DNA of 64,000 nucleotides from a virus. Below the pieces are notes generated by a model that was not told where the DNA came from, ran no database searches, and saw nothing but the letters and a program-made list of their open reading frames with translations. Shown here in pieces: positions 39,561-57,854 of this stretch (its first letter is position 1; every line of letters begins with the position of its first letter). The DNA lies in the IMG/VR virus record IMGVR_UViG_3300037137_001027, positions 95,508 through 159,507 of that record. The stretch is one strand, 5' to 3'. Both the position numbers and the translations under genes were made by a program.

Positions 39561-42500
39561 GTGCCGCGAGGGATACCGAAACCAGTATATCCAATTGCTC
39601 TCGATTCAGATTACACGCTGTTCAACGTAAAAAACAGTACGCAGGCCACTTTGTCCAAAGATTTAGAAAGACTAGACGATTTACTCAACATTGTTCCCCA
39701 AGATGCTAATTCAGTAGAAATATGGCCTGAAAACGGTTTCGTAACCATCGCTGACGAGCTAATTTATTATGATGCAGTGAACTTTGATGAAAATAGAAAA
39801 ATAAATCAGTTAAAAGATTGTATCCGTGGAGTCGAGGGTGAACCACAATCATATTATGAAGGTACAGCAATATACTCAAATGTGGTGGCACAGACCCACA
39901 ACCAATTAGTAGATGCTGTTATAGCAATTGAAGAGGCAATTGGTGATATTAGTGATGTATTAAAGGTAGGACCACAACTTAAAACTCAACAAAGTGTAAG
40001 AAAAAACTTATTGCCCCCACAAATTCAAAAAATGAATGCGTTGGCAGTTAGTCCAGACGCCTTACATGCAGCCCCACTAACTTCATCAATTTCTTCAATG
40101 GTAGGATGCTGCCCACAGGTGGGCGATGACGCCTGCCCCGATGTTGAATTTGAATTCAATAACACAGGTGGTTTAGCCGAATATTGCATACGAATTTTTG
40201 GCAACTATCTTTCTTTTGAACTTGATTTTGGCGACGGCTTCAAAGAAAACACTCAGCTATCTGGAGTTCATCAATACATAAGTGCTGGCCCTTACAATCC
40301 TACTGTAATGGTTGAAGGAGCAACTTGCTGTATAGTACAAAGTCCAACACCACCAAATGAATTCTGCTGCGGTATTAATCTACCAAATCCTTCTGTGCCA
40401 TTTGTGGTTCATATTCCTGACATACCAGCTTTTCCAGAGTTTATAGCTCCAAAACAAATATGCCCTGGACCGTTACTGAACTTGCCACCTATTTTATTGC
40501 CAGAAGTAAACTTATGTCCTTCACAGATATCAATGTCACAAATATCTTGTTGTGTGTCTGTAATTGAAGCGTGTAAAACACCACAGGTTATACAAATAGT
40601 TAGTCCATGCAAAATTAGCGTAATATCATTAGAAGGATGCCATTTGCCTAGCGTTATATCGCTGATTGGCTGTTGTATGCCAAGCATCGTGTCCTTCGAC
40701 GTAGTTATAGATTTGAGTATCGAGCCTGTATGCTTCTGTGAACCACCAAGCTTCGCCCCTATTAGCTTCGAGCCTGTATGCTTCTGTGAACCACCAAGGT
40801 TTGATGTGATTAGCTTCGCACCATTCCCAAGCTTTGACAGAATATCCTTCGACGTAGTTATAGATTTGAGTATCGAGCCTGTATGCTTCTGTGAACCACC
40901 AAGCTTTGGTGTAATTAGCTTCGCACCATTCCCAAATATTAAACCAGTGTCATTTGATGTAGCTATAGATTTAAGCATAGAACCTATATGCTTCTGTCAG
41001 CCGCCAAAATTTGATCCCATATCATTAGACTTAAACATAGACTTAAGCATAGAACCTATATGCTTCTGTGAACCACCAAGCTTTGGTGTAATTAGCTTCG
41101 CACCATTCCCAAATATTAAACCAGTGTCATTCGACGTAGCTATAGACTTAAGTATCGAGCCTGTATGCTTCTGTGAACCACCAAGCTTTGCTCTTATTAG
41201 TTTCGCACCATTCCCAAGCATTCAACCAGTGTCATTTGATGTAGCTATAGATTTAACCATAGAACCTGTATGCTTTTGTGAACCACCAAGCTTTGCTCCT
41301 ATTAGTTTCGCACCATTGCCAGCGTTTGACAGAATATCATTCGACGTAGCTGTAGGATTAAGTTTGGAACCTATATGCTTCTGTGAACCACCAAGCTTTG
41401 GTGTAATTAGCTTTGCGCCATTACCAGTATTTGACAGAATATCATTCGACGTAGCTGTAGGATTAAGCATGGAACCTATTTGCTTCTGTGAACCACCAAG
41501 CTTTCAATGCATAAGTTTCTGTCCAGTGCCAAGTTTTGCACCTATTAGTTTTGCGCCATTACCAGTATTTGACAGAATATCATTCGACGTAGCTGTAGGA
41601 CTAAGTATAGAACCTATTTGTTTTTGCGAACCACCAAAATTTGACTGCGTTAGCTTCTGTAATGTACCAAGTTTCGGCAACATTAGTTTTGGGCCATTAC
41701 CAGTATTTGACAGAATATCATTCGACGTAGCTGTAGGACTAAGTATAGAACCTATTTGTTTTTGCGAACCACCAAAATTTGACTGCATAAGCTTCTGCTC
41801 ATTGCCAAGTTTTGCACCTATTAGTTTTGGGCCATTACCAGTATTTGACAGAATATCATTCGACGTAGCTGTAGGACTAAGTATAGAGCCTATTTGTTTT
41901 TGCGAACCACCGAGTTTCCAGTGCGTTAGCTTCTGTCCACCGCCAGATTTTCATTGTATTAGCTTCTGTCCATCGCCAGTGTTTGCACCTATTAGTTTTG
42001 CTCCATTCCCTGTTATATCTCCTGTTAAGTTTGACGTAATTGTGGATTTGAGTATAGAACCTGTGTGTTTTTGCGAACCACCGAGTTTCCAGTGTATTAG
42101 CTTCTGCCCAGCGCCAGATTTTCATTGTATTAGCTTCTGTCCATCGCCAGTGTTTGCGCCTATTAGTTTTGCTCCATTACCTGTTATATCTCCTGTTAAG
42201 TTTGACGTAATTGTGGATTTGAGTATAGAACCTGTGTGCTTCTGTGAACCACCTAGTTTCCAGTGTATTAGTTTCTGCCCAGCGCCAGATTTTCATTGTA
42301 TTAGCTTCTGTCCACCGCCAATGTTTGCACCTATTAGTTTTGCTCCATTACCAGTGTTTGATAAGATATCTTTGGATGTGGCTGTAAACGTAAAGATAAG
42401 TCCTATCTGTTTTTGCGAGCCGCCTAGCATTAATTGCATTAGTTTTTGTCCATTCCCTATTGTGCCAGCAATTAGTTTTGCTCCATTCCCTGTTATATCT

Positions 42501-43775
42501 CCTGTTAATTTTGACGTAATTGTGGATTTGAGTATAGAACCTGTGTGCTTCTGTGAACCACCGAGTTTCCAGTGCGTTAGCTTCTGTCCACCGCCAGATT
42601 TCCCGTGCGTTAACTTCTGCCCACCGCCAGATTTCCCGTGCGTTAACTTCTGCCCACCGCCAACTTTCCAGTGTATTAGCTTCTGTCCACCGCCAACTTT
42701 CCAGTGTATTAGCTTCTGTCCACCGCCAATGTTTGCGCCTATTAGTTTTGCTCCATTACCTGTTATACCTCCTGTTAAGTTTGACGTAATTGTGGATTTG
42801 AGTATAGAACCTGTGTGCTTCTGTGAGCCGCCTAGCTTTCAGTGTATTAGCTTTTGTACACCACCAACCTTTACTTGTATTAGTTTCTGCGTACCAGAAG
42901 ATTTGTGCATTAGCTTCTGCCCAGCGCCAGATTTGTGCATTAGTTTCTGCACACCGCCAACTTTCCCGTGCGTTAACTTCTGCCCACCGCCAACTTTCCA
43001 GTGTATTAGCTTCTGCCCACCGCCAACTTTCCAGTGTATTAACTTCTGTACGCCGCCAACTTTCCCGTGCATTAGTTTCTGTCCACCACCGAGCTTCCCG
43101 TGCATTAACTTCTGTCCACCACCAGTCATTTCGGTTAATTGGGGTACGCCGCCAGTCGTAACCGTACAGGTTGTATGTCCATCTACTTCAATGGCTTTTG
43201 GGGCTGCACCGCCAATGACTGTCGCTCCAAATAAACGACAAATGACAGAGGAGATTGATGATGATAATTTGGCTATTAATTTAAGTGAATTGTTGCCTTC
43301 TGAAATTAAGTTAATAGTGCCTAAAATTAATGATATAAAGGTAATGCATGATTTGCCCCAAGAAATTTTCTTAAGAGGAAATTTACCAGCGGAAATTAAA
43401 GTTATAGGTCCAAGTCAGCCTATACCAGATACAATCCTTATTCGTGGAGATATTCCAAAGAGCATCGAGATAGTTCATAATCTGCCAGAGAGGATTATCC
43501 TTGATGCGAAAGATGTTCCTCGTAGAATTTTGGTCGAACCAGCACCTAATTTCCCAACTTCTATTAAACTGGAAGTTACAGGGATGCCACAAACTCTCCA
43601 AGTTACGGGCATACCAAAAACCATCGAAATCATCGAAAATATTCCAAGGACTATTCAATTACTAATGCCTGAGAATCCAGAAGTCATCATGCGATGGAAC
43701 GGGGTGCCAGTGGAATTAAAGCCAAGTCCAGATTTAGAAAAATTGTTGACTAACTTAGTTATTCCACAAAGATAA
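39561..43775 (+). CDS. giant Cys/Pro-repeat fibre protein, 1404 aa
   Basis: GTG start after AAGGAG. Residues 1-135 contain the third copy of the shared module (LKDCIRGVEGEPQSYYEGTA, HNQLVDAVIAIEEAIG). Residues about 375-1190 are an extreme repeat array: a 46-residue unit such as RISFDVAVGLSIEPICFC followed by EPPKFDCVSFC and ISFGPLPVFD, and in the second half 11-residue units like CISFCPPPTFQ. The C-terminal 190 residues use a related P-x-x-I-x-L-x-G repeat (DLPQEIFLRGNLPAEIKVIG). A long beta-strand-turn fibre is likely. Cys-x3-Cys spacing invites disulfide or metal pairing. No homologue recognised. Confidence 0.65.
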   Translation: MPRGIPKPVYPIALDSDYTLFNVKNSTQATLSKDLERLDDLLNIVPQDANSVEIWPENGFVTIADELIYYDAVNFDENRKINQLKDCIRGVEGEPQSYYEGTAIYSNVVAQTHNQLVDAVIAIEEAIGDISDVLKVGPQLKTQQSVRKNLLPPQIQKMNALAVSPDALHAAPLTSSISSMVGCCPQVGDDACPDVEFEFNNTGGLAEYCIRIFGNYLSFELDFGDGFKENTQLSGVHQYISAGPYNPTVMVEGATCCIVQSPTPPNEFCCGINLPNPSVPFVVHIPDIPAFPEFIAPKQICPGPLLNLPPILLPEVNLCPSQISMSQISCCVSVIEACKTPQVIQIVSPCKISVISLEGCHLPSVISLIGCCMPSIVSFDVVIDLSIEPVCFCEPPSFAPISFEPVCFCEPPRFDVISFAPFPSFDRISFDVVIDLSIEPVCFCEPPSFGVISFAPFPNIKPVSFDVAIDLSIEPICFCQPPKFDPISLDLNIDLSIEPICFCEPPSFGVISFAPFPNIKPVSFDVAIDLSIEPVCFCEPPSFALISFAPFPSIQPVSFDVAIDLTIEPVCFCEPPSFAPISFAPLPAFDRISFDVAVGLSLEPICFCEPPSFGVISFAPLPVFDRISFDVAVGLSMEPICFCEPPSFQCISFCPVPSFAPISFAPLPVFDRISFDVAVGLSIEPICFCEPPKFDCVSFCNVPSFGNISFGPLPVFDRISFDVAVGLSIEPICFCEPPKFDCISFCSLPSFAPISFGPLPVFDRISFDVAVGLSIEPICFCEPPSFQCVSFCPPPDFHCISFCPSPVFAPISFAPFPVISPVKFDVIVDLSIEPVCFCEPPSFQCISFCPAPDFHCISFCPSPVFAPISFAPLPVISPVKFDVIVDLSIEPVCFCEPPSFQCISFCPAPDFHCISFCPPPMFAPISFAPLPVFDKISLDVAVNVKISPICFCEPPSINCISFCPFPIVPAISFAPFPVISPVNFDVIVDLSIEPVCFCEPPSFQCVSFCPPPDFPCVNFCPPPDFPCVNFCPPPTFQCISFCPPPTFQCISFCPPPMFAPISFAPLPVIPPVKFDVIVDLSIEPVCFCEPPSFQCISFCTPPTFTCISFCVPEDLCISFCPAPDLCISFCTPPTFPCVNFCPPPTFQCISFCPPPTFQCINFCTPPTFPCISFCPPPSFPCINFCPPPVISVNWGTPPVVTVQVVCPSTSMAFGAAPPMTVAPNKRQMTEEIDDDNLAINLSELLPSEIKLIVPKINDIKVMHDLPQEIFLRGNLPAEIKVIGPSQPIPDTILIRGDIPKSIEIVHNLPERIILDAKDVPRRILVEPAPNFPTSIKLEVTGMPQTLQVTGIPKTIEIIENIPRTIQLLMPENPEVIMRWNGVPVELKPSPDLEKLLTNLVIPQR
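40690..43130. repeat. complex 138-bp and 33-bp repeat array in fibre gene
   Basis: The 138-bp unit (46 residues) is seen with copies starting near 41581, 41719 and 41857, with more diverged copies upstream from about 40690. From about 42590 units of 33 bp (11 residues) dominate, with near-identical pairs at about 42601 and 42634. Copies keep Cys, Pro and Phe positions. Confidence 0.9.
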
Positions 43776-47694: not shown

Positions 47695-48705
47695 ATGGCA
47701 ATCGGTTTTGATGCTGGAACATATAATCTTGTGTGCTGTACAAGAGACGACAAGAAAGATTTTGTTTATGACCGAGAAGTGAATGCCTTTCTTGAAATAG
47801 CCCTAGAGGATCGGCTCGTTTTTCAAATGATGAAGACGGTTGGGGTGCCTTTGATTGAGCGATCAAATAAAGCCTACGCTCTTGGGGAAAAGGCCGTTCG
47901 AATGGCTTATACATTGGCTCAGTTAGAACTAAAACGTCCGATGAAGGATGGCTGTGTAAATTCAAAAGAACGCGATGCTTACGAAGTTATGAGTATTATG
48001 TTACACAGCTTGTTAGAAGGCAATGTCAAGAGTAATAATGATATTCTTTATTTCAGTGTGCCAGCCAACGCGATTAATGAAGAAACGGATGCAGAATTCC
48101 ATACCAATATATTAGACTCCATTTTCAAAGCATATGAATCTGATGAAGGTTACAAAGTCAAAGCATTCCCAATCAACGAAGGTTTGGCTTTGGTCTACGC
48201 TGAATTAAAAGCCGATAATTACACTGGCATTGGTATTTCTTTTGGTGCGGGCATGGTTAATTTATGCTTTGCTATGTTTGGTGTACCAGTTTTTACCTTC
48301 GCCATTGTCAATAGTGGTGACTGGATTGACAAAATGGCAGCTAAGGCTACAGGCGAGAGTATTACTTTCATCAACCAGGAAAAAACTAAAGTTAATCTAA
48401 GTTCTAATCCTGCTAACATTATTGAAAGAGCAATTCAAACGCAGTATCGAATTATGGTTGAAAAGACCGTAACGGTAATCAAGAAGGGTTTAAGTGAAGC
48501 TGGGAAAAAGGCTCGTTCCGACAAACCTGTTGATATTGTTATTGCGGGCGGCACATCACTTCCTGTGGGTTTTGACACCCTATTCCGAGATGTTATCAAG
48601 CAAACAGAACTACCAATTCAGGTCGGGAAAATTGTCCGTCCAGATGACCCATTGTTCAGCGTTGCTAGAGGATGTTTAGTGGCAGCAGAAAATTCTCTGC
48701 AATAA
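47695..48705 (+). CDS. actin/Hsp70-superfamily ATPase
   Basis: 336 residues with the three nucleotide-binding elements: phosphate 1 AIGFDAGTYNLVCC (start), phosphate 2 GIGISFGAGMVNLCF (about 180-195), and adenosine DIVIAGGTSLPVGF (about 280-293), ending with a VARGCLVAA helix. The length is close to MreB/ParM-type actins rather than the much longer Hsp70. It could form filaments that move DNA or assemble phage parts. A bacterial-type helix with FPINEGLALVYAE lies before phosphate 2. Function is inferred. Confidence 0.7.
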   Translation: MAIGFDAGTYNLVCCTRDDKKDFVYDREVNAFLEIALEDRLVFQMMKTVGVPLIERSNKAYALGEKAVRMAYTLAQLELKRPMKDGCVNSKERDAYEVMSIMLHSLLEGNVKSNNDILYFSVPANAINEETDAEFHTNILDSIFKAYESDEGYKVKAFPINEGLALVYAELKADNYTGIGISFGAGMVNLCFAMFGVPVFTFAIVNSGDWIDKMAAKATGESITFINQEKTKVNLSSNPANIIERAIQTQYRIMVEKTVTVIKKGLSEAGKKARSDKPVDIVIAGGTSLPVGFDTLFRDVIKQTELPIQVGKIVRPDDPLFSVARGCLVAAENSLQ

Positions 48706-49523: not shown

Positions 49524-49742
49524 ATGGTAATGCAGAAGACAATAGATGATCTAGGTGCAGGTGCTTATTACATGATGCACAAATATGAAGCAATAGGCAA
49601 GAGGGGTAAGGCTATTATTTTTGAAATAGATGAGAAAGACTCGGAAGAGTTTGACCGTCTTTATAGGAAATATCTTAATAGCGAATTTCACCGATTTGAT
49701 TCTTGTATAATGTCCTTGAAAAAACTGCCCCAAATCAACTAA
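49524..49742 (+). CDS. hypothetical protein, 72 aa
   Basis: ATG at 49524 with AAAGGAA seven bases upstream; the longer frame begins inside the terminator. The product MVMQKTIDDLGAGAYYMMHK is followed by a short strand and DEKDSEEFDRLYRKY, so it looks like a compact alpha/beta protein. No family recognised. It ends nine bases before the next ATG. Confidence 0.5.
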   Translation: MVMQKTIDDLGAGAYYMMHKYEAIGKRGKAIIFEIDEKDSEEFDRLYRKYLNSEFHRFDSCIMSLKKLPQIN

Positions 49743-49746
49743 ATAT
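49739..49746 (+). promoter_or_regulatory. late-promoter-like box CTAAATAT
   Basis: The TAAATA core is 5 bases upstream of the ATG at 49751, which has no Shine-Dalgarno. The box overlaps the stop of the preceding gene. Confidence 0.3.
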
Positions 49747-49750
49747 TGGC

Positions 49751-52294
49751 ATGAACAAGTGGCCAAAAATAAAGAGCAGTATTTATCAAGAAAAATTAGA
49801 TGAGGTTTGTAAAGTATTCGTTGATGTAAAAGATAATAGTGCGAGTACAAAGACCCCTCGTTGTGAGTGGACAGTCCCACTGAAAAATTGGACCACTGCA
49901 CAAATCAAGACAGACAATTCGCTCAAATTATCACTGCAAGAATTCGCCCATCTTAGCGGCCAGGTTAATGCCTTGAAAATAGCTATGGCAAACAACCACG
50001 GCAAAGAGAACGAAGTAATACAGGAATATCAGCAGGCTTTTACTAATGATTACTTAAGAATTCTAGAAAGTAAGACCAATGAGTTAAAACTAGAAGTTAC
50101 AGCCGAATTAGTAGAAGAGAAGCAATTTCCACTAGAACTTTTCGTCATTTGGTATGAAGAAGCTCATAAACTACCACCAGAACAATTTAATGAAGAATTA
50201 GGTGACTTTTGGGGAGATGTTTGGAAAAATGCTGGTAAAGGCGCAGGATATGGAGGTTTAATAGGTGGTGCTGCTGGTGGTATTCCTACAGGCGGTATGG
50301 GAACCTTTGCGGGCGCAGGCTTGGGCGGATTAGCAGGCTGGGCGGCTGGTGGATTATATGGCGGCGCTTCACACTTATTAAAGAAAGTTTGGCACTATCG
50401 ACAAACCCAACGTAATTTTGAACAGACAAAACAAAAAGCATTAGAAGCTCTTAAAAATTTGAAAGATTTATCTGATAACTTTGACATGCATCCAAATTTC
50501 ATAAAATCATTAGACACGATGATTGACCAGTTGGGAACTGCAAGAGCGTATCGCACAGCAGGAGCAACACCGCAACCTACAGACCAAAATGCTATACCTG
50601 GAAAGCAAGTTAATACGACAGAACCCCCAACGAGTCCAGAACCAGAAGCTTCACTTGGAACATCAGGAGTTCCTAAAACTACGCCGCCTCCTACTCCAGC
50701 TTCATCGTCAGCGGCGGCAGCTTCACCTCCTGTTTCACCGACCGCACCGCCAGGCGCAACTGCTGCCGCGCCATTAGCACCAAAGCCGACCGCACCGCCA
50801 GGCGCAACTGCTGCCGCGCCATTAGCACCAAAGCCGACCGCACCTGCACCAGTTGTATCAGCGCCAGTTACACCGACCGCACCTGAACCAGTTGTACCTC
50901 CAGTTGTATCAGCACCAGTCAAGCAAAAGAAAGAAGTGAACATAGCAAAGGGAATAATGCTTCAGGGGCGATTGGCATTTAGTAACGGTAGAAAATTAGA
51001 GGATAATCCTTGGCTTAGACCTGAAAAATTAGATAAGCCTAAAGCTGATACTTGGGCATATGGATATAACGCCGCAAAAGAAAAAGCTGAAAAGGGTACT
51101 CCAGGCATCCCACCAGAAGCCACACCCCCTGTAGAAACATCGCCAGAAACTACAACAGCACCTGCTAGAAAAAGATTTGATGAAGAAAAGCATATTTTGG
51201 ATCACTACAAAGATGCTAGTGAAGAAGAATTGGCTAAATTAGGCACAATAGCATTAAATACAATTGGCATCGTACAGGGAGATAACGATAAGCCGCAGTT
51301 GAACAAAATACAAGATATGGACTTTAATACTTTTACTGATGCGTTTCATCAGTTACGCGGCCCGCAGCATGTCCCAACAAATGAAGACGATTTAAAAGAC
51401 ATGGCAAACATTGGTAGACAGTTTTTACAACAACTTACCGATAAAACATCAGGTGGGGCAGGCACCTCAAAAGTAGACACAGGCGCTGGTGCGCCAGTGC
51501 CAAAAGAAGAGAAGCCGTTAAGTAAAGAAGAAGTTTTGGAAACTCTAAGGAAAAAGTTTGATTATCTTAGCCATTTAGCTTCACCTGATCTAAAAGCATT
51601 CATCGCAAAGCACGGCCTTGATGATTTGGCAAAAGATGATAATGACAAGATAACTGTTAGTGGTCCTGGCACCCCAAATCGTAAAGGATTTGTAAGAGAT
51701 TTAGCAGTTAAACTAAATCGGTCGTTAGGTGGCCCTGAAGAACCACCATCGCCAGAATTAGCAGAACTAAATCCAGCAGCGCCTGTTGCACCGCCAGCAG
51801 CAGCGGCAGCAAAGGCAACAGAGCCAGGTGAAGCTACACCACCTAAGCCAAAAGAACCAGAAGTGACGGCTACGCCGCCAGCGGCTAGCACTGTTAGTAG
51901 GCCACAACCCAAAAAAGAAGCCCCAACGGGAGAACCAGTTAGAGATTATAAAAAACACACAGATGAAGAACTTGAAAAGTTATCAAATAAAGAACTGAAA
52001 AAAATAGGTATGCACTTAGACTTGGACACAGACATTAAAGATGCTAGAAACAGACGTGACATTATTAATATCTTGGGACAATTCTATAGTATGCCAGATG
52101 CATCTGAAGGTGACAGAACAAGAACCGCAAAAGCAAAAGCTGAAAAGTGGGCAGCGGAAAACTTATTAAAAGGCAAACAAGAGTCCGCAATGGAAAAATA
52201 CGGCAGAATTCTCCATGAGCGAAAACTGGCTGCATTACCTATGAATGAAAAGGTGGGATATTTGAAATCTTTACTTAGTTGCCGTGGTAGCTAG
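49751..52294 (+). CDS. virion-type protein with Gly zipper, Pro/Ala linkers and RMF-like motif, 847 aa
   Basis: ATG at 49751. Helical N-terminus to about 150; residues 155-210 form a glycine-zipper (GGLIGGAAGGIPTGGMGTFA), often membrane-inserting; Pro/Ala-rich linker at 280-395 with a 16-residue tandem repeat. At about 397-448 AKGIMLQGRLAFSNGRK then NPWLRP and WAYGYNAAKEKAEKG match the ribosome modulation factor-like fold (G-x-x-A-x-x-x-G, N-P-[WY], W-x-x-G-[YW]). Two further helical domains are split by another Pro/Ala linker. A virion ejection role is inferred from layout. Confidence 0.55.
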   Translation: MNKWPKIKSSIYQEKLDEVCKVFVDVKDNSASTKTPRCEWTVPLKNWTTAQIKTDNSLKLSLQEFAHLSGQVNALKIAMANNHGKENEVIQEYQQAFTNDYLRILESKTNELKLEVTAELVEEKQFPLELFVIWYEEAHKLPPEQFNEELGDFWGDVWKNAGKGAGYGGLIGGAAGGIPTGGMGTFAGAGLGGLAGWAAGGLYGGASHLLKKVWHYRQTQRNFEQTKQKALEALKNLKDLSDNFDMHPNFIKSLDTMIDQLGTARAYRTAGATPQPTDQNAIPGKQVNTTEPPTSPEPEASLGTSGVPKTTPPPTPASSSAAAASPPVSPTAPPGATAAAPLAPKPTAPPGATAAAPLAPKPTAPAPVVSAPVTPTAPEPVVPPVVSAPVKQKKEVNIAKGIMLQGRLAFSNGRKLEDNPWLRPEKLDKPKADTWAYGYNAAKEKAEKGTPGIPPEATPPVETSPETTTAPARKRFDEEKHILDHYKDASEEELAKLGTIALNTIGIVQGDNDKPQLNKIQDMDFNTFTDAFHQLRGPQHVPTNEDDLKDMANIGRQFLQQLTDKTSGGAGTSKVDTGAGAPVPKEEKPLSKEEVLETLRKKFDYLSHLASPDLKAFIAKHGLDDLAKDDNDKITVSGPGTPNRKGFVRDLAVKLNRSLGGPEEPPSPELAELNPAAPVAPPAAAAAKATEPGEATPPKPKEPEVTATPPAASTVSRPQPKKEAPTGEPVRDYKKHTDEELEKLSNKELKKIGMHLDLDTDIKDARNRRDIINILGQFYSMPDASEGDRTRTAKAKAEKWAAENLLKGKQESAMEKYGRILHERKLAALPMNEKVGYLKSLLSCRGS
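50740..50835. repeat. two perfect 48-bp tandem repeats
   Basis: Two identical 48-bp copies encode TAPPGATAAAPLAPKP in the Pro/Ala linker of the Gly-zipper protein; a partial third copy follows from 50836. Low-complexity DNA typical of flexible linkers. Confidence 0.9.
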
Positions 52295-53192
52295 TTAGCC
52301 AACGGACTGTTCCGCTTTCTGATCGCATAAATACGCTATTGGTAATTGGGCCGAATTCACTAAAACGAACCCCTTTCAGAAGGCTACCGTCCGTTATTCC
52401 AGTTGCTGCAAATACACAATGTCCAACTACTAGATCATCCTGATGATAAACCTTATCATCAAGTTTATTGCCATCTTTATCGCATAATTGTGCTTGAAAG
52501 CCACCGCCCAAGCATTTCACAGCACATGCAGTCAAAACTCCTTCGGGTGCGCCACCCGCGCCATACAACAAATCAATACCCCTATCTGGCAAACAAGCTG
52601 CTATAGCTCCACTAACATCGCAGTCCTGTATCAGCTTAATCCTAACGCCCATTTTTCTCATTCTTGCTATCACTTCAACATGGCGTGGTCTATCTAAAAT
52701 ACAAACCATAATGTCAGTCATTTTCTTGCCAGTAGCAAGTGCTAATAACTGTATCGTTCTCTCAATAGGATCGTTTATATTCAACTGGACAGTTTTGGCG
52801 ATAGAAGCTCCAAAAGCCAGTTTGTTCATATAGAACTCATGCGTCCGAAACATGCTGCCGCCATCGGCTACAGCTATTGTAGACATGGCTTCTGGACCAG
52901 AAGTAACGGTTGGTCTTGTACCTTCGATTGGATCAACTGCTATGTCTAATGCAGGAGTTTGTTCTGTCCTTAAACTACCAACATCTTCGCCGCAATAAAG
53001 ACCAAATGATTCATCTTTTTTACCTTCACCAATGGCTATGGTGCCACGGAACTCCATCTTATTTAGTCGGCGTCTCATTGCTTCGGTGGCAGCTTTATCT
53101 GCTTCTAGTTTATCACCGCTACCGATCCAATGAGAGGCGGCGATGGCGGCGTTCTCGGTAGTACGCACTATATCAAGACCCAACAATTTCAT
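52275..53192 (-). CDS. glpX-like: fructose-1,6-bisphosphatase class II, GlpX-like
   Basis: 305 residues with the GlpX signature in order: AADKAATEAMR (Asp32), IAIGEGKKDES (Glu56), DIAVDPIEGTRPTVTSGPEA (Asp87, Glu90), ILDRPRH, LLYGAGGAPEGVLTACAVKC (Glu217) and VFAATGITDGSLLKGVRF. Class II FBPase removes the 1-phosphate from fructose 1,6-bisphosphate in gluconeogenesis or the Calvin cycle. A loop between the APEG motif and the TGIT motif is shorter than in cellular GlpX. An N-terminal GLDIVRTTENAAIAAS is also conserved. Minus strand, overlapping the neighbouring ends by 20 bases and 4 bases. The substrate-shape residues look intact. Confidence 0.85.
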   Translation of the reverse strand: MKLLGLDIVRTTENAAIAASHWIGSGDKLEADKAATEAMRRRLNKMEFRGTIAIGEGKKDESFGLYCGEDVGSLRTEQTPALDIAVDPIEGTRPTVTSGPEAMSTIAVADGGSMFRTHEFYMNKLAFGASIAKTVQLNINDPIERTIQLLALATGKKMTDIMVCILDRPRHVEVIARMRKMGVRIKLIQDCDVSGAIAACLPDRGIDLLYGAGGAPEGVLTACAVKCLGGGFQAQLCDKDGNKLDDKVYHQDDLVVGHCVFAATGITDGSLLKGVRFSEFGPITNSVFMRSESGTVRWLTSYHGN

Positions 53193-53587
53193 TTCTTTTC
53201 CTCGGTAAAAGCTTGTTTTGCTTTCTTGGCCATTTCAGCCAAAGCAGCAGGATTAACAAGTGGCGAGGCTTCTTGCATTTTCATCGACGGGACAGCATGT
53301 TTTACAGCCGTTAATGGTTTTTCCTTCCGATATTCTGCAATGATTTTAGCATGTTCAGGATTATCTTCAAAGAGCATTTGCTCCTCGGTAATTGAAACAA
53401 TGTGTGGGAACAGTATGTAGCTGTGGCAATTGGTCATGGGATGAACCAACCAGATGCCTTTGTCGTCAACAGTTTCAACAAATCCCATAAAATAATCCAT
53501 CATTGCTTCTTCTTTGAAGCGAAAATTGATTTGGATTGTCGTGATTGTGCAGGCTTTGCCTATGAAATACTTCAAATACTCTTTCAT
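53189..53587 (-). CDS. hypothetical protein, possibly Sm-like, 132 aa
   Basis: MKEYLKYFIGKACTITTIQI, then YFMGFVETVDDKGIWLVHP and SYILFPHIVSITEEQ: a string of beta strands with G-x-V-x-x-[VI]-D-D-x-G-[IV]-x-[LV] typical of Sm/LSm or small beta-barrel RNA-binding folds; C-terminal part is a Lys/Ala helix (PAALAEMAKKAKQAF). It overlaps the GlpX-like gene start by four bases, so they are coexpressed. The fold call is tentative. Confidence 0.45.
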   Translation of the reverse strand: MKEYLKYFIGKACTITTIQINFRFKEEAMMDYFMGFVETVDDKGIWLVHPMTNCHSYILFPHIVSITEEQMLFEDNPEHAKIIAEYRKEKPLTAVKHAVPSMKMQEASPLVNPAALAEMAKKAKQAFTEEKK

Positions 53588-55442: not shown

Positions 55443-56447
55443 TCATTTATTTAATAAAAGAGTTATGGCGGTAAAATCATCAAATGATTTTTCATACTGT
55501 TCTATCCAAGCCACGATAATCTCTGTGTTAAATTTGACTAGCATTTTATTCCAATCCTTCACTCCAGCAGGCGGGATAACAAAAGTTATATCGGATATTT
55601 GGTTAAGTATTAGCTTTTTACCCATTTCAATAATACCGTTAAATCCCGCCTCATCTTCATCCAATGCTAGACATATCTTGTAATCTCTTATGAACTCTAT
55701 CTGTTTGTCACTTAAGGTTTTGCCACCACACGCCATGCCATTGAAACCGCATATTTTAAGGGTGAAAGCATCTAACTCACCTTCAGTCAGATATATCTTA
55801 GAGCCTTTATTTGGCCAGCAAGTCGCATAGATTACGTCACCCTTACCAACACCGATCCCCTTTTCAGGACCAAGATATCTCAATCCTTTATTTGACATAT
55901 TGCGGCCATTAAAATAAATAAGCCCGCCTTTAGCATCATAATATGGGATAATTATTCTATTTTTATAGTCTCCAGTCGAACAGACATAAAGACCTTCGGT
56001 TGGCAGCTTTCTTTTGACAAGATAATCTTCTGCTTCCATGCGAAGCAAGCTGCTTTTTGGCAAGCCTGTAATCAAATAAGTGTAAGGCGGAAGTTTGATT
56101 TTAACTTCTTTTGGTATGACTATTTCTTTTTCTTCAAAGAGCTTGTCTAATATATCTTCCAGTATCCTAATGGGCGTGTTGCCTGAAAGTAACTCTTTGG
56201 CTTCTTCGTAACTACAATTATCAACCTCCATGACCAGACCAACAAGAGTACCCTTCTTGTCGGTGTAGAAACAGCGATAGACTCCATCATCCCTATGATG
56301 TTTGCCACCATAAGGATTTGCCCACATGTGGTGTTTATGATCGGGCGCAAATATAGAGTTAAGTCTTACTTCTTTGCCCTTAATGACCACATCACCAGGG
56401 AAGCGATCTTCACACCATGAAACAAAGCTATCAAAATCAATTGACAT
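55443..56447 (-). CDS. DNA primase (CHC2/TOPRIM)
   Basis: 334 residues. The zinc-binding N-terminal region is reduced but recognisable (GVYRCFYTDKKGTLVGLVME, then YEEAKELLSG). The TOPRIM domain has KIYLTEGELDAFTLKI with the Glu, GMACGGKTL, and YKICLALDEDEAGFNG (D-x-D-x-A-G). A basic RNA-primer region with GLPKSSLLRMEAEDYL and NRIIIPYYDAKGGL lies between. It makes RNA primers for replication; no helicase is in this window. Overlaps the methyltransferase-like gene by 11 bases. Confidence 0.8.
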   Translation of the reverse strand: MSIDFDSFVSWCEDRFPGDVVIKGKEVRLNSIFAPDHKHHMWANPYGGKHHRDDGVYRCFYTDKKGTLVGLVMEVDNCSYEEAKELLSGNTPIRILEDILDKLFEEKEIVIPKEVKIKLPPYTYLITGLPKSSLLRMEAEDYLVKRKLPTEGLYVCSTGDYKNRIIIPYYDAKGGLIYFNGRNMSNKGLRYLGPEKGIGVGKGDVIYATCWPNKGSKIYLTEGELDAFTLKICGFNGMACGGKTLSDKQIEFIRDYKICLALDEDEAGFNGIIEMGKKLILNQISDITFVIPPAGVKDWNKMLVKFNTEIIVAWIEQYEKSFDDFTAITLLLNK

Positions 56448-57071: not shown

Positions 57072-57854
57072 ATGAGGAAAAAACTAGAACTAATGAAAAT
57101 AGAACATTTGAGCGTTTCCAGAGTCGGTGTATGGGAACTTTGCCAACAACAGTACAAGTACAAATACCACGAAAAAATACCATCCCTTGAAGAAGACCCA
57201 ATCTATTTTACTTATGGATCAATTGTACACAAAATTGCCGAAAGATACATAGAAAGTAAAGGCGAAATATTGATTTCTGAGATTGCCAATGATGTTTTGA
57301 ACGGCAAAATACCATTGGATGATGGCAAGAAGAACATCAAACTGCCCCAGGAATATAAGAGCAAGATAGTCGATCATATTCGGGCAATTAAGAAAATATC
57401 TGACCAGCTAGGGTTCGACGGTCACACGGAATGGGAATTCAATTTTGACTTAGACCCACCACACAAAAAGATCGTTATGGGCTATATCGACCGCTTGGTG
57501 CAAAAAGGTGATAAATTCTGGATTTTAGACTATAAAACAACCAAAAAAGGTCCGTGGCGCAAAGGTATAAAAGAGATCACAAATGATTTACAGTTAAAGA
57601 CTTATGCCAGAGTAGTTCAGAAAGAGTTCAATGCCAAAGCGGAAAACATTAAAGCAGCATTATATTACCTTGAAGGGCCAGAGTTAGTAGGCGCGACATT
57701 CAGTGAACAATCCCTGGATCGGGTTGAAGAAGAATTACTAAAATGCTATAATGAAATTGCAAACACTAATCCAAACAAGGTCTTAGGTAACGTCGGACAG
57801 CATTGTAGTAGATGCAACTATAGAAAAATTTGTCCTTTTTATTCATTAACATGA
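57072..57854 (+). CDS. PD-(D/E)XK nuclease, RecB/Cas4-like
   Basis: 260 residues. SVSRVGVWELCQQQYKYKYH (entry with the first Cys), YGSIVHKIAERYIE, GYIDRLVQKGDKFWILDYKT (motifs II and III: D, E/D-x-K) and a C-terminal HCSRCNYRKICPF iron-sulfur cluster. That layout, one early Cys and three late ones, is that of RecB/AddB/Cas4-type nucleases. It should process DNA ends during replication or recombination. ATG at 57072 used; a second at 57093 is possible. Overlaps the next gene by four bases. Confidence 0.8.
   Translation: MRKKLELMKIEHLSVSRVGVWELCQQQYKYKYHEKIPSLEEDPIYFTYGSIVHKIAERYIESKGEILISEIANDVLNGKIPLDDGKKNIKLPQEYKSKIVDHIRAIKKISDQLGFDGHTEWEFNFDLDPPHKKIVMGYIDRLVQKGDKFWILDYKTTKKGPWRKGIKEITNDLQLKTYARVVQKEFNAKAENIKAALYYLEGPELVGATFSEQSLDRVEEELLKCYNEIANTNPNKVLGNVGQHCSRCNYRKICPFYSLT

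Follow-up and report, generated by a model that had tools for sequence, protein, structure and literature searches.

A phage-encoded class II fructose-1,6-bisphosphatase from a variant clade of huge phages and Omnitrophota

Metabolic genes carried by phages are mostly read as recent loans from their hosts. Here, we ask whether this holds for a glpX-type gene, initially annotated as a phage-encoded class II fructose-1,6-bisphosphatase (FBPase), in a 64,000-nucleotide stretch (the window) of a 159,507-base IMG/VR virus record. Is its product an intact enzyme of this class, and does it look like a borrowed host protein or like an enzyme lineage that phages own?

An intact GlpX in a phage setting

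The open reading frame (ORF) lies where the initial annotation placed it (Table 1). Its product matches the Pfam family FBPase_glpX (PF03320) with an E value of 5e-108 over positions 3 to 307 of 307 (361 bits; cut-off, 27) and exceeds the curated cut-off of the NCBIfam glpX equivalog TIGR00330 (284.6 versus 259.3 bits); two divergent viral relatives, L010 and L014, score just under that cut-off (243 and 245 bits). The closest solved structure is Mycobacterium tuberculosis GlpX (E 1e-75). An AlphaFold model of the window protein (pLDDT 88, pTM 0.87) was used for a Foldseek search, whose 24 PDB matches with E ≤ 0.001 are without exception class II FBPases (GlpX); the TM score to M. tuberculosis 7txb is 0.89. 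The window protein is thus confirmed as an intact class II FBPase by Pfam, TIGR00330, and predicted fold.

Table 1. Features of the window around glpX.
Feature	Coordinates	Strand	Remarks
glpX, viral-clade class II FBPase	52275..53192	-	305 aa; start ATG at 53192, stop ends at 52275, ORF intact; IxDCD at residues 188-192 (C191), E101, nucleophile T92
F3, 132-aa conserved protein, no assigned function	53189..53587	-	Directly upstream of glpX; no Pfam match
DNA primase-like protein (Toprim)	55443..56447	-	PHROG 47, E 4.8e-37; upstream of glpX, syntenic in 13 loci
PD-(D/E)XK exonuclease	57072..57854	+	Pfam PDDEXK_1, E 9.6e-28; syntenic in 11 loci
863-aa low-complexity protein, converging	49703..52294	+	3' end overlaps glpX 3' end by 20 nt
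Actin homologue (Volactin family)	47695..48705	+	Pfam PF25216, E 1.3e-67; near glpX in 12 viral loci

Ten active-site residues have been defined in M. tuberculosis GlpX (D27, E51, D79, D82, T84, Y114, R159, R161, D183, and E208; PMC5892879), and all ten have counterparts in the window protein (D32, E56, D87, E90, T92, Y121, R168, R170, D192, and E217). These cover the metal ligands (D32, E56, D87, E90, and E217), the threonine nucleophile (T92), the Arg-Pro-Arg motif for the 6-phosphate (R168-P169-R170), and the counterpart of Escherichia coli Tyr119 (Y121). The metal and phosphate motifs described in the initial annotation are therefore in place, with no key residue missing from the alignment. 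Shared with the GlpX enzymes of E. coli, M. tuberculosis, and Francisella tularensis (TIGR00330, PF03320) are the fold, length, metal ligands, threonine nucleophile, R-P-R grip, and C-terminal half; the phage protein differs from cellular GlpX in carrying IxDCD for IxDGD and Glu101 for the usual Asn, in a loop before TGIT that is about 10 residues shorter, and in being encoded by a phage. The class is further defined by a 222 homotetramer and by fructose-1,6-bisphosphate hydrolysis.

Across the 38 viral rows of our alignment, the ten catalytic positions are conserved, the only exception being end gaps in one partial row. Position 90 is Glu or Asp, as among cellular enzymes, and both arginines of R-P-R and the Y121-type tyrosine occur in every viral row. 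Furthermore, dN/dS between near relatives is 0.04-0.07; glpX is under purifying selection. One might propose that catalysis has been lost or is unneeded and that the protein serves a structural, regulatory, or metabolite-sensing role, since the gene is dispensable in one phage (LR756511, below) and adjoins replication and structural genes rather than a metabolic operon. The invariance of catalytic residues across viral sequences that are otherwise only ~50% identical argues against this proposal, which we consider highly improbable.

Genes for a primase, an exonuclease, a tape measure, a baseplate wedge, and a head protease flank glpX on its two sides. On the strength of the first four and of collinearity with a 595-kb phage, the phage setting of the gene is certain. 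That class II FBPases are rarely if ever mentioned in phages, as had been stated, is nearly right: viral glpX is entered as an auxiliary metabolic gene in soil and trench viromes (PMC12615777 and PMC12448302, the former calling it new in viruses), and a review marks it "not validated" (PMC12713726). In the portions of these three papers available to us, the gene stands on viral contigs as a list entry only, and its clade, motif change, and huge-phage synteny are not described.

A variant clade shared with Omnitrophota

Two IMG/VR searches yielded ~38 distinct viral GlpX homologues on contigs of up to 532,729 bases, several of them on contigs of 220-533 kb. Among cultured phages there was no true phage match (five records were fragments from bacteria, contigs labelled as phage, or unverified entries), PHROGs holds no family for GlpX, and a viral structure library gave no match to the model.

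The nearest relatives in reference genomes come from Candidatus Omnitrophota, at 61-66% identity and in ordinary chromosomal surroundings. The phage-type protein is found in only 12 of 384 Omnitrophota genomes, with scores of 468-506 bits, against best scores of ≤349 bits in 349 Pseudomonadota genomes (the phylum of L053) and ≤327 bits in 145 genomes of the phylum of L058. Because the initial scan of genomes relied on exact query peptides and wide sampling was limited to three phyla, cellular members elsewhere may be missed by these counts.

Phylogeny with bacterial GlpX, which had been suggested as a check on the annotation, places the viral proteins and the 12 chromosomal Omnitrophota copies in one clade (support 100) on a long stem branch (0.63-0.91), apart from the 37 other GlpX in the tree. 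The Omnitrophota copies form one group nested inside the viral rows. Viral monophyly with Omnitrophota merely as sister appears in 0% of bootstraps but survives the AU test (p 0.065). Transfer of glpX from phage to Omnitrophota is therefore only likely, since the AU test leaves viral monophyly standing; the gene is a candidate for phage-to-bacterium flow of a gluconeogenic enzyme. None of the 12 Omnitrophota carriers has a class I FBPase, and 11 also lack a class V match, the remaining one having weak class V matches within a long ORF. This absence of the other FBPase families tested fits phage-type GlpX doing FBPase work in these bacteria. Weak GlpX-like stretches (42-50 bits) also occur in giant Omnitrophota frames of 3967-8764 aa (G044:C49, G148:C20, and G070:C43; loci L150, L145, and L144).

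The clade departs from the rest of the family at two positions. All 50 viral and Omnitrophota rows (38 and 12, respectively) have C191, giving IxDCD, where the 37 other cellular rows have Gly; both Asp of IxDGD are retained. Likewise, position 101 is Glu in 50/50 of these rows and in 0/37 of the others, 32 of which have Asn. IxDGD has been termed strictly conserved across the class and critical for contacts with furanose hydroxyls (PMC10289334). Because the protein lacks this motif, we class it, by sequence, as belonging to a variant clade of the family and not as a standard member. The glycine-to-cysteine change falls between the pair of aspartates that reportedly hold the furanose hydroxyls, and an altered substrate preference or regulation through C191 is therefore a real possibility. 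In metagenomes, IxDCD could also serve as a marker that separates glpX of the viral type from the cellular type.

That the loop before TGIT (G230-F261 in the window protein) is shorter had already been pointed out, and the alignment bears this out: median lengths are 32 residues for viral and 42 for cellular rows, with overlapping ranges (29-50 viral versus 42-55 cellular), and the Salmonella loop has 55 residues. M. tuberculosis GlpX is itself 13 residues short in this loop relative to E. coli (PMC5892879). A change of IGEGE to IGEGK was considered as a viral signature and ruled out, since Lys also occurs in 11/37 cellular rows.

The two replaced positions raise the alternative that the viral clade applies GlpX chemistry to another sugar bisphosphate or phosphate ester, such as sedoheptulose-1,7-bisphosphate (SBP) or another ketose or pyranose bisphosphate, with C191 and E101 as the specificity changes. 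The clean split at C191, the near-clean one at E101, the reported furanose contacts of IxDGD, and the long stem branch would all suit such a shift, as would the acceptance of SBP by cyanobacterial members of the fold (3roj and 5a5l). Nevertheless, every catalytic and phosphate-binding residue is kept, Cys is tolerable at such a site, and among the families tested GlpX is the only recognised FBPase of the Omnitrophota carriers; we regard a different substrate as rather unlikely. A broader scenario is that a sugar bisphosphatase with altered substrate preference evolved in viruses, was long kept in huge phages, and passed to Omnitrophota, a phylum with no other recognised FBPase, to serve there as a chromosomal one; this is speculative, and we put it forward only tentatively.

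Inheritance in a huge-phage lineage

In the window's phage group, the row exonuclease-primase-F3-glpX faces the converging gene, a 95-aa protein, the actin homologue, and a glycosyltransferase. This row recurs in phages whose GlpX is only ~58% identical. The stop of F3 overlaps the start of glpX by 4 nt (ATGA), both in the window and in six relatives, and coupling of the two genes is likely because of this overlap. Pairwise GlpX identity tracks that of the primase, actin, F3, exonuclease, and GT9 proteins (r 0.88-0.93; Mantel, 0 of 2000). Thus, glpX appears from its sequence record to be an old, stably inherited core gene of a huge-phage lineage and not a recent theft from a host.

The gene order of LR756511.1 (595 kb), an uncultured, metagenomic huge phage, follows that of the window, and most proteins are 42-83% identical; at the place of glpX, exactly this gene is lacking. 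Loss is the simpler account of this absence, because distant members of the group carry glpX in the same place; LR756511 can therefore be seen as a natural deletion of the gene. The gene is old and useful, yet non-essential. An auxiliary metabolic gene is taken to be one that sits in a true phage genome without being essential and that alters the metabolism of the host in infection; on the first two points, phage genes lie on both sides, and a collinear phage does without glpX.

Could the gene instead be an ordinary auxiliary metabolic gene, captured recently from the present, possibly phototrophic, host? Phages often acquire metabolic genes, and some neighbours of glpX differ between viral groups. 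Against this, the best cellular match is just 66% identical, all close ones are Omnitrophota and nested inside the viral rows, the protein has diverged together with phage core genes, and the gene keeps its position; recent capture is improbable. Rather, glpX looks like a phage-owned enzyme lineage, and positions C191 and E101 make it a clean test case of whether viruses reshape central-carbon enzymes. Missed by the initial annotation were the place of glpX as an old core gene of huge phages, its separate clade, and the break in a class-wide motif.

Several further features were seen around viral glpX genes. The Volactin Pfam family is named for a haloarchaeal actin; the window's actin homologue has no PHROG and is 79% identical to its counterpart in LR756511. 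A trio of membrane proteins, one of them MotA/TolQ/ExbB-like (E 5e-7), adjoins or lies near glpX in either orientation at eight loci (L009, L014, L018, L096, L105, L114, L116, and L125). In a second viral group (L013, L014, L018, L114, and L116), a cupin lies immediately or nearly immediately upstream of glpX and has weak profile similarity to D-lyxose ketol-isomerase (D-lyxose/D-mannose isomerases; E 9e-5). Two frames near viral glpX seem to be broken by intein-like or homing-endonuclease-like inserts (L089:3736-6231 and L105:2224-3850); the genes concerned are a structural gene and a GMP-reductase/IMPDH-like gene.

Probable role during infection

We infer the enzyme activity, the exact substrate, the direction of flux, and the benefit. 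In the reading we favour, with a probability of roughly 0.7, phage GlpX is an active sugar-bisphosphatase, most likely converting fructose-1,6-bisphosphate (FBP) to fructose-6-phosphate (F6P), that supplies sugar in infection. The huge tailed phage would make a metal-dependent enzyme of GlpX fold, in which T92 would act as the nucleophile, D32, E56, D87, E90, and E217 would hold the metal, and R168-P-R170 would grip the 6-phosphate, releasing F6P and phosphate. This one-way step might push the carbon of the infected cell toward F6P and from there into pentoses, hexosamines, and sugar nucleotides. We count in favour of the sugar-supply role that the same record encodes glycosyltransferases and an RmlC epimerase and that the isomerase-like cupin adjoins glpX in the second viral group. 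Counted against this reading are the altered class-wide motif, the two relatives below the TIGR00330 cut-off, and the existence of LR756511 without the gene. In its remodelled pocket, FBP is the probable rather than the certain substrate.

Like the carbon-flux module of cyanophages (talC, zwf, gnd, and cp12), glpX is a phage-encoded gene of central carbon metabolism. A cyanophage-like pentose module was nevertheless rejected: transaldolase, the hallmark enzyme of that module, is absent from the 19 viral records searched, some of which are fragments, and neither transaldolase nor another clear pathway partner lies near glpX in the window's group. The initial annotation had also raised a contribution to Calvin-cycle flux, an idea that finds no support here, as the closest cellular relatives are Omnitrophota and not phototrophs, and the ORFs read contain no look-alike of RuBisCO or phosphoribulokinase. 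Cyanobacterial dual FBPase/SBPases (3roj and 5a5l) belong to the same family and adopt the same fold (TM 0.91-0.92, query-normalised) at 36-38% identity, with no sign of a phototroph setting for the phage protein.

As to the host, a CRISPR spacer search that compared 368 Omnitrophota genomes with 20 kb of the window produced only chance-level matches of ≤46 bits, several of them within a single part of a putative HNH gene. We treat an Omnitrophota-like host as no more than a lead.

Among other genes of the same virus record are those for a glutamine-dependent NAD synthetase (L022:6141-7841), the dTDP-sugar epimerase RmlC (L021:10682-11197), and a dihydroorotate-dehydrogenase-like protein (L021:19174-19986). 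The window also encodes a 1404-aa protein (39561-43775, plus strand) with many Cys-rich repeats like CFCEPPSFxxISFxP; with 674 aa, the LR756511 relative of this protein has about half its length.
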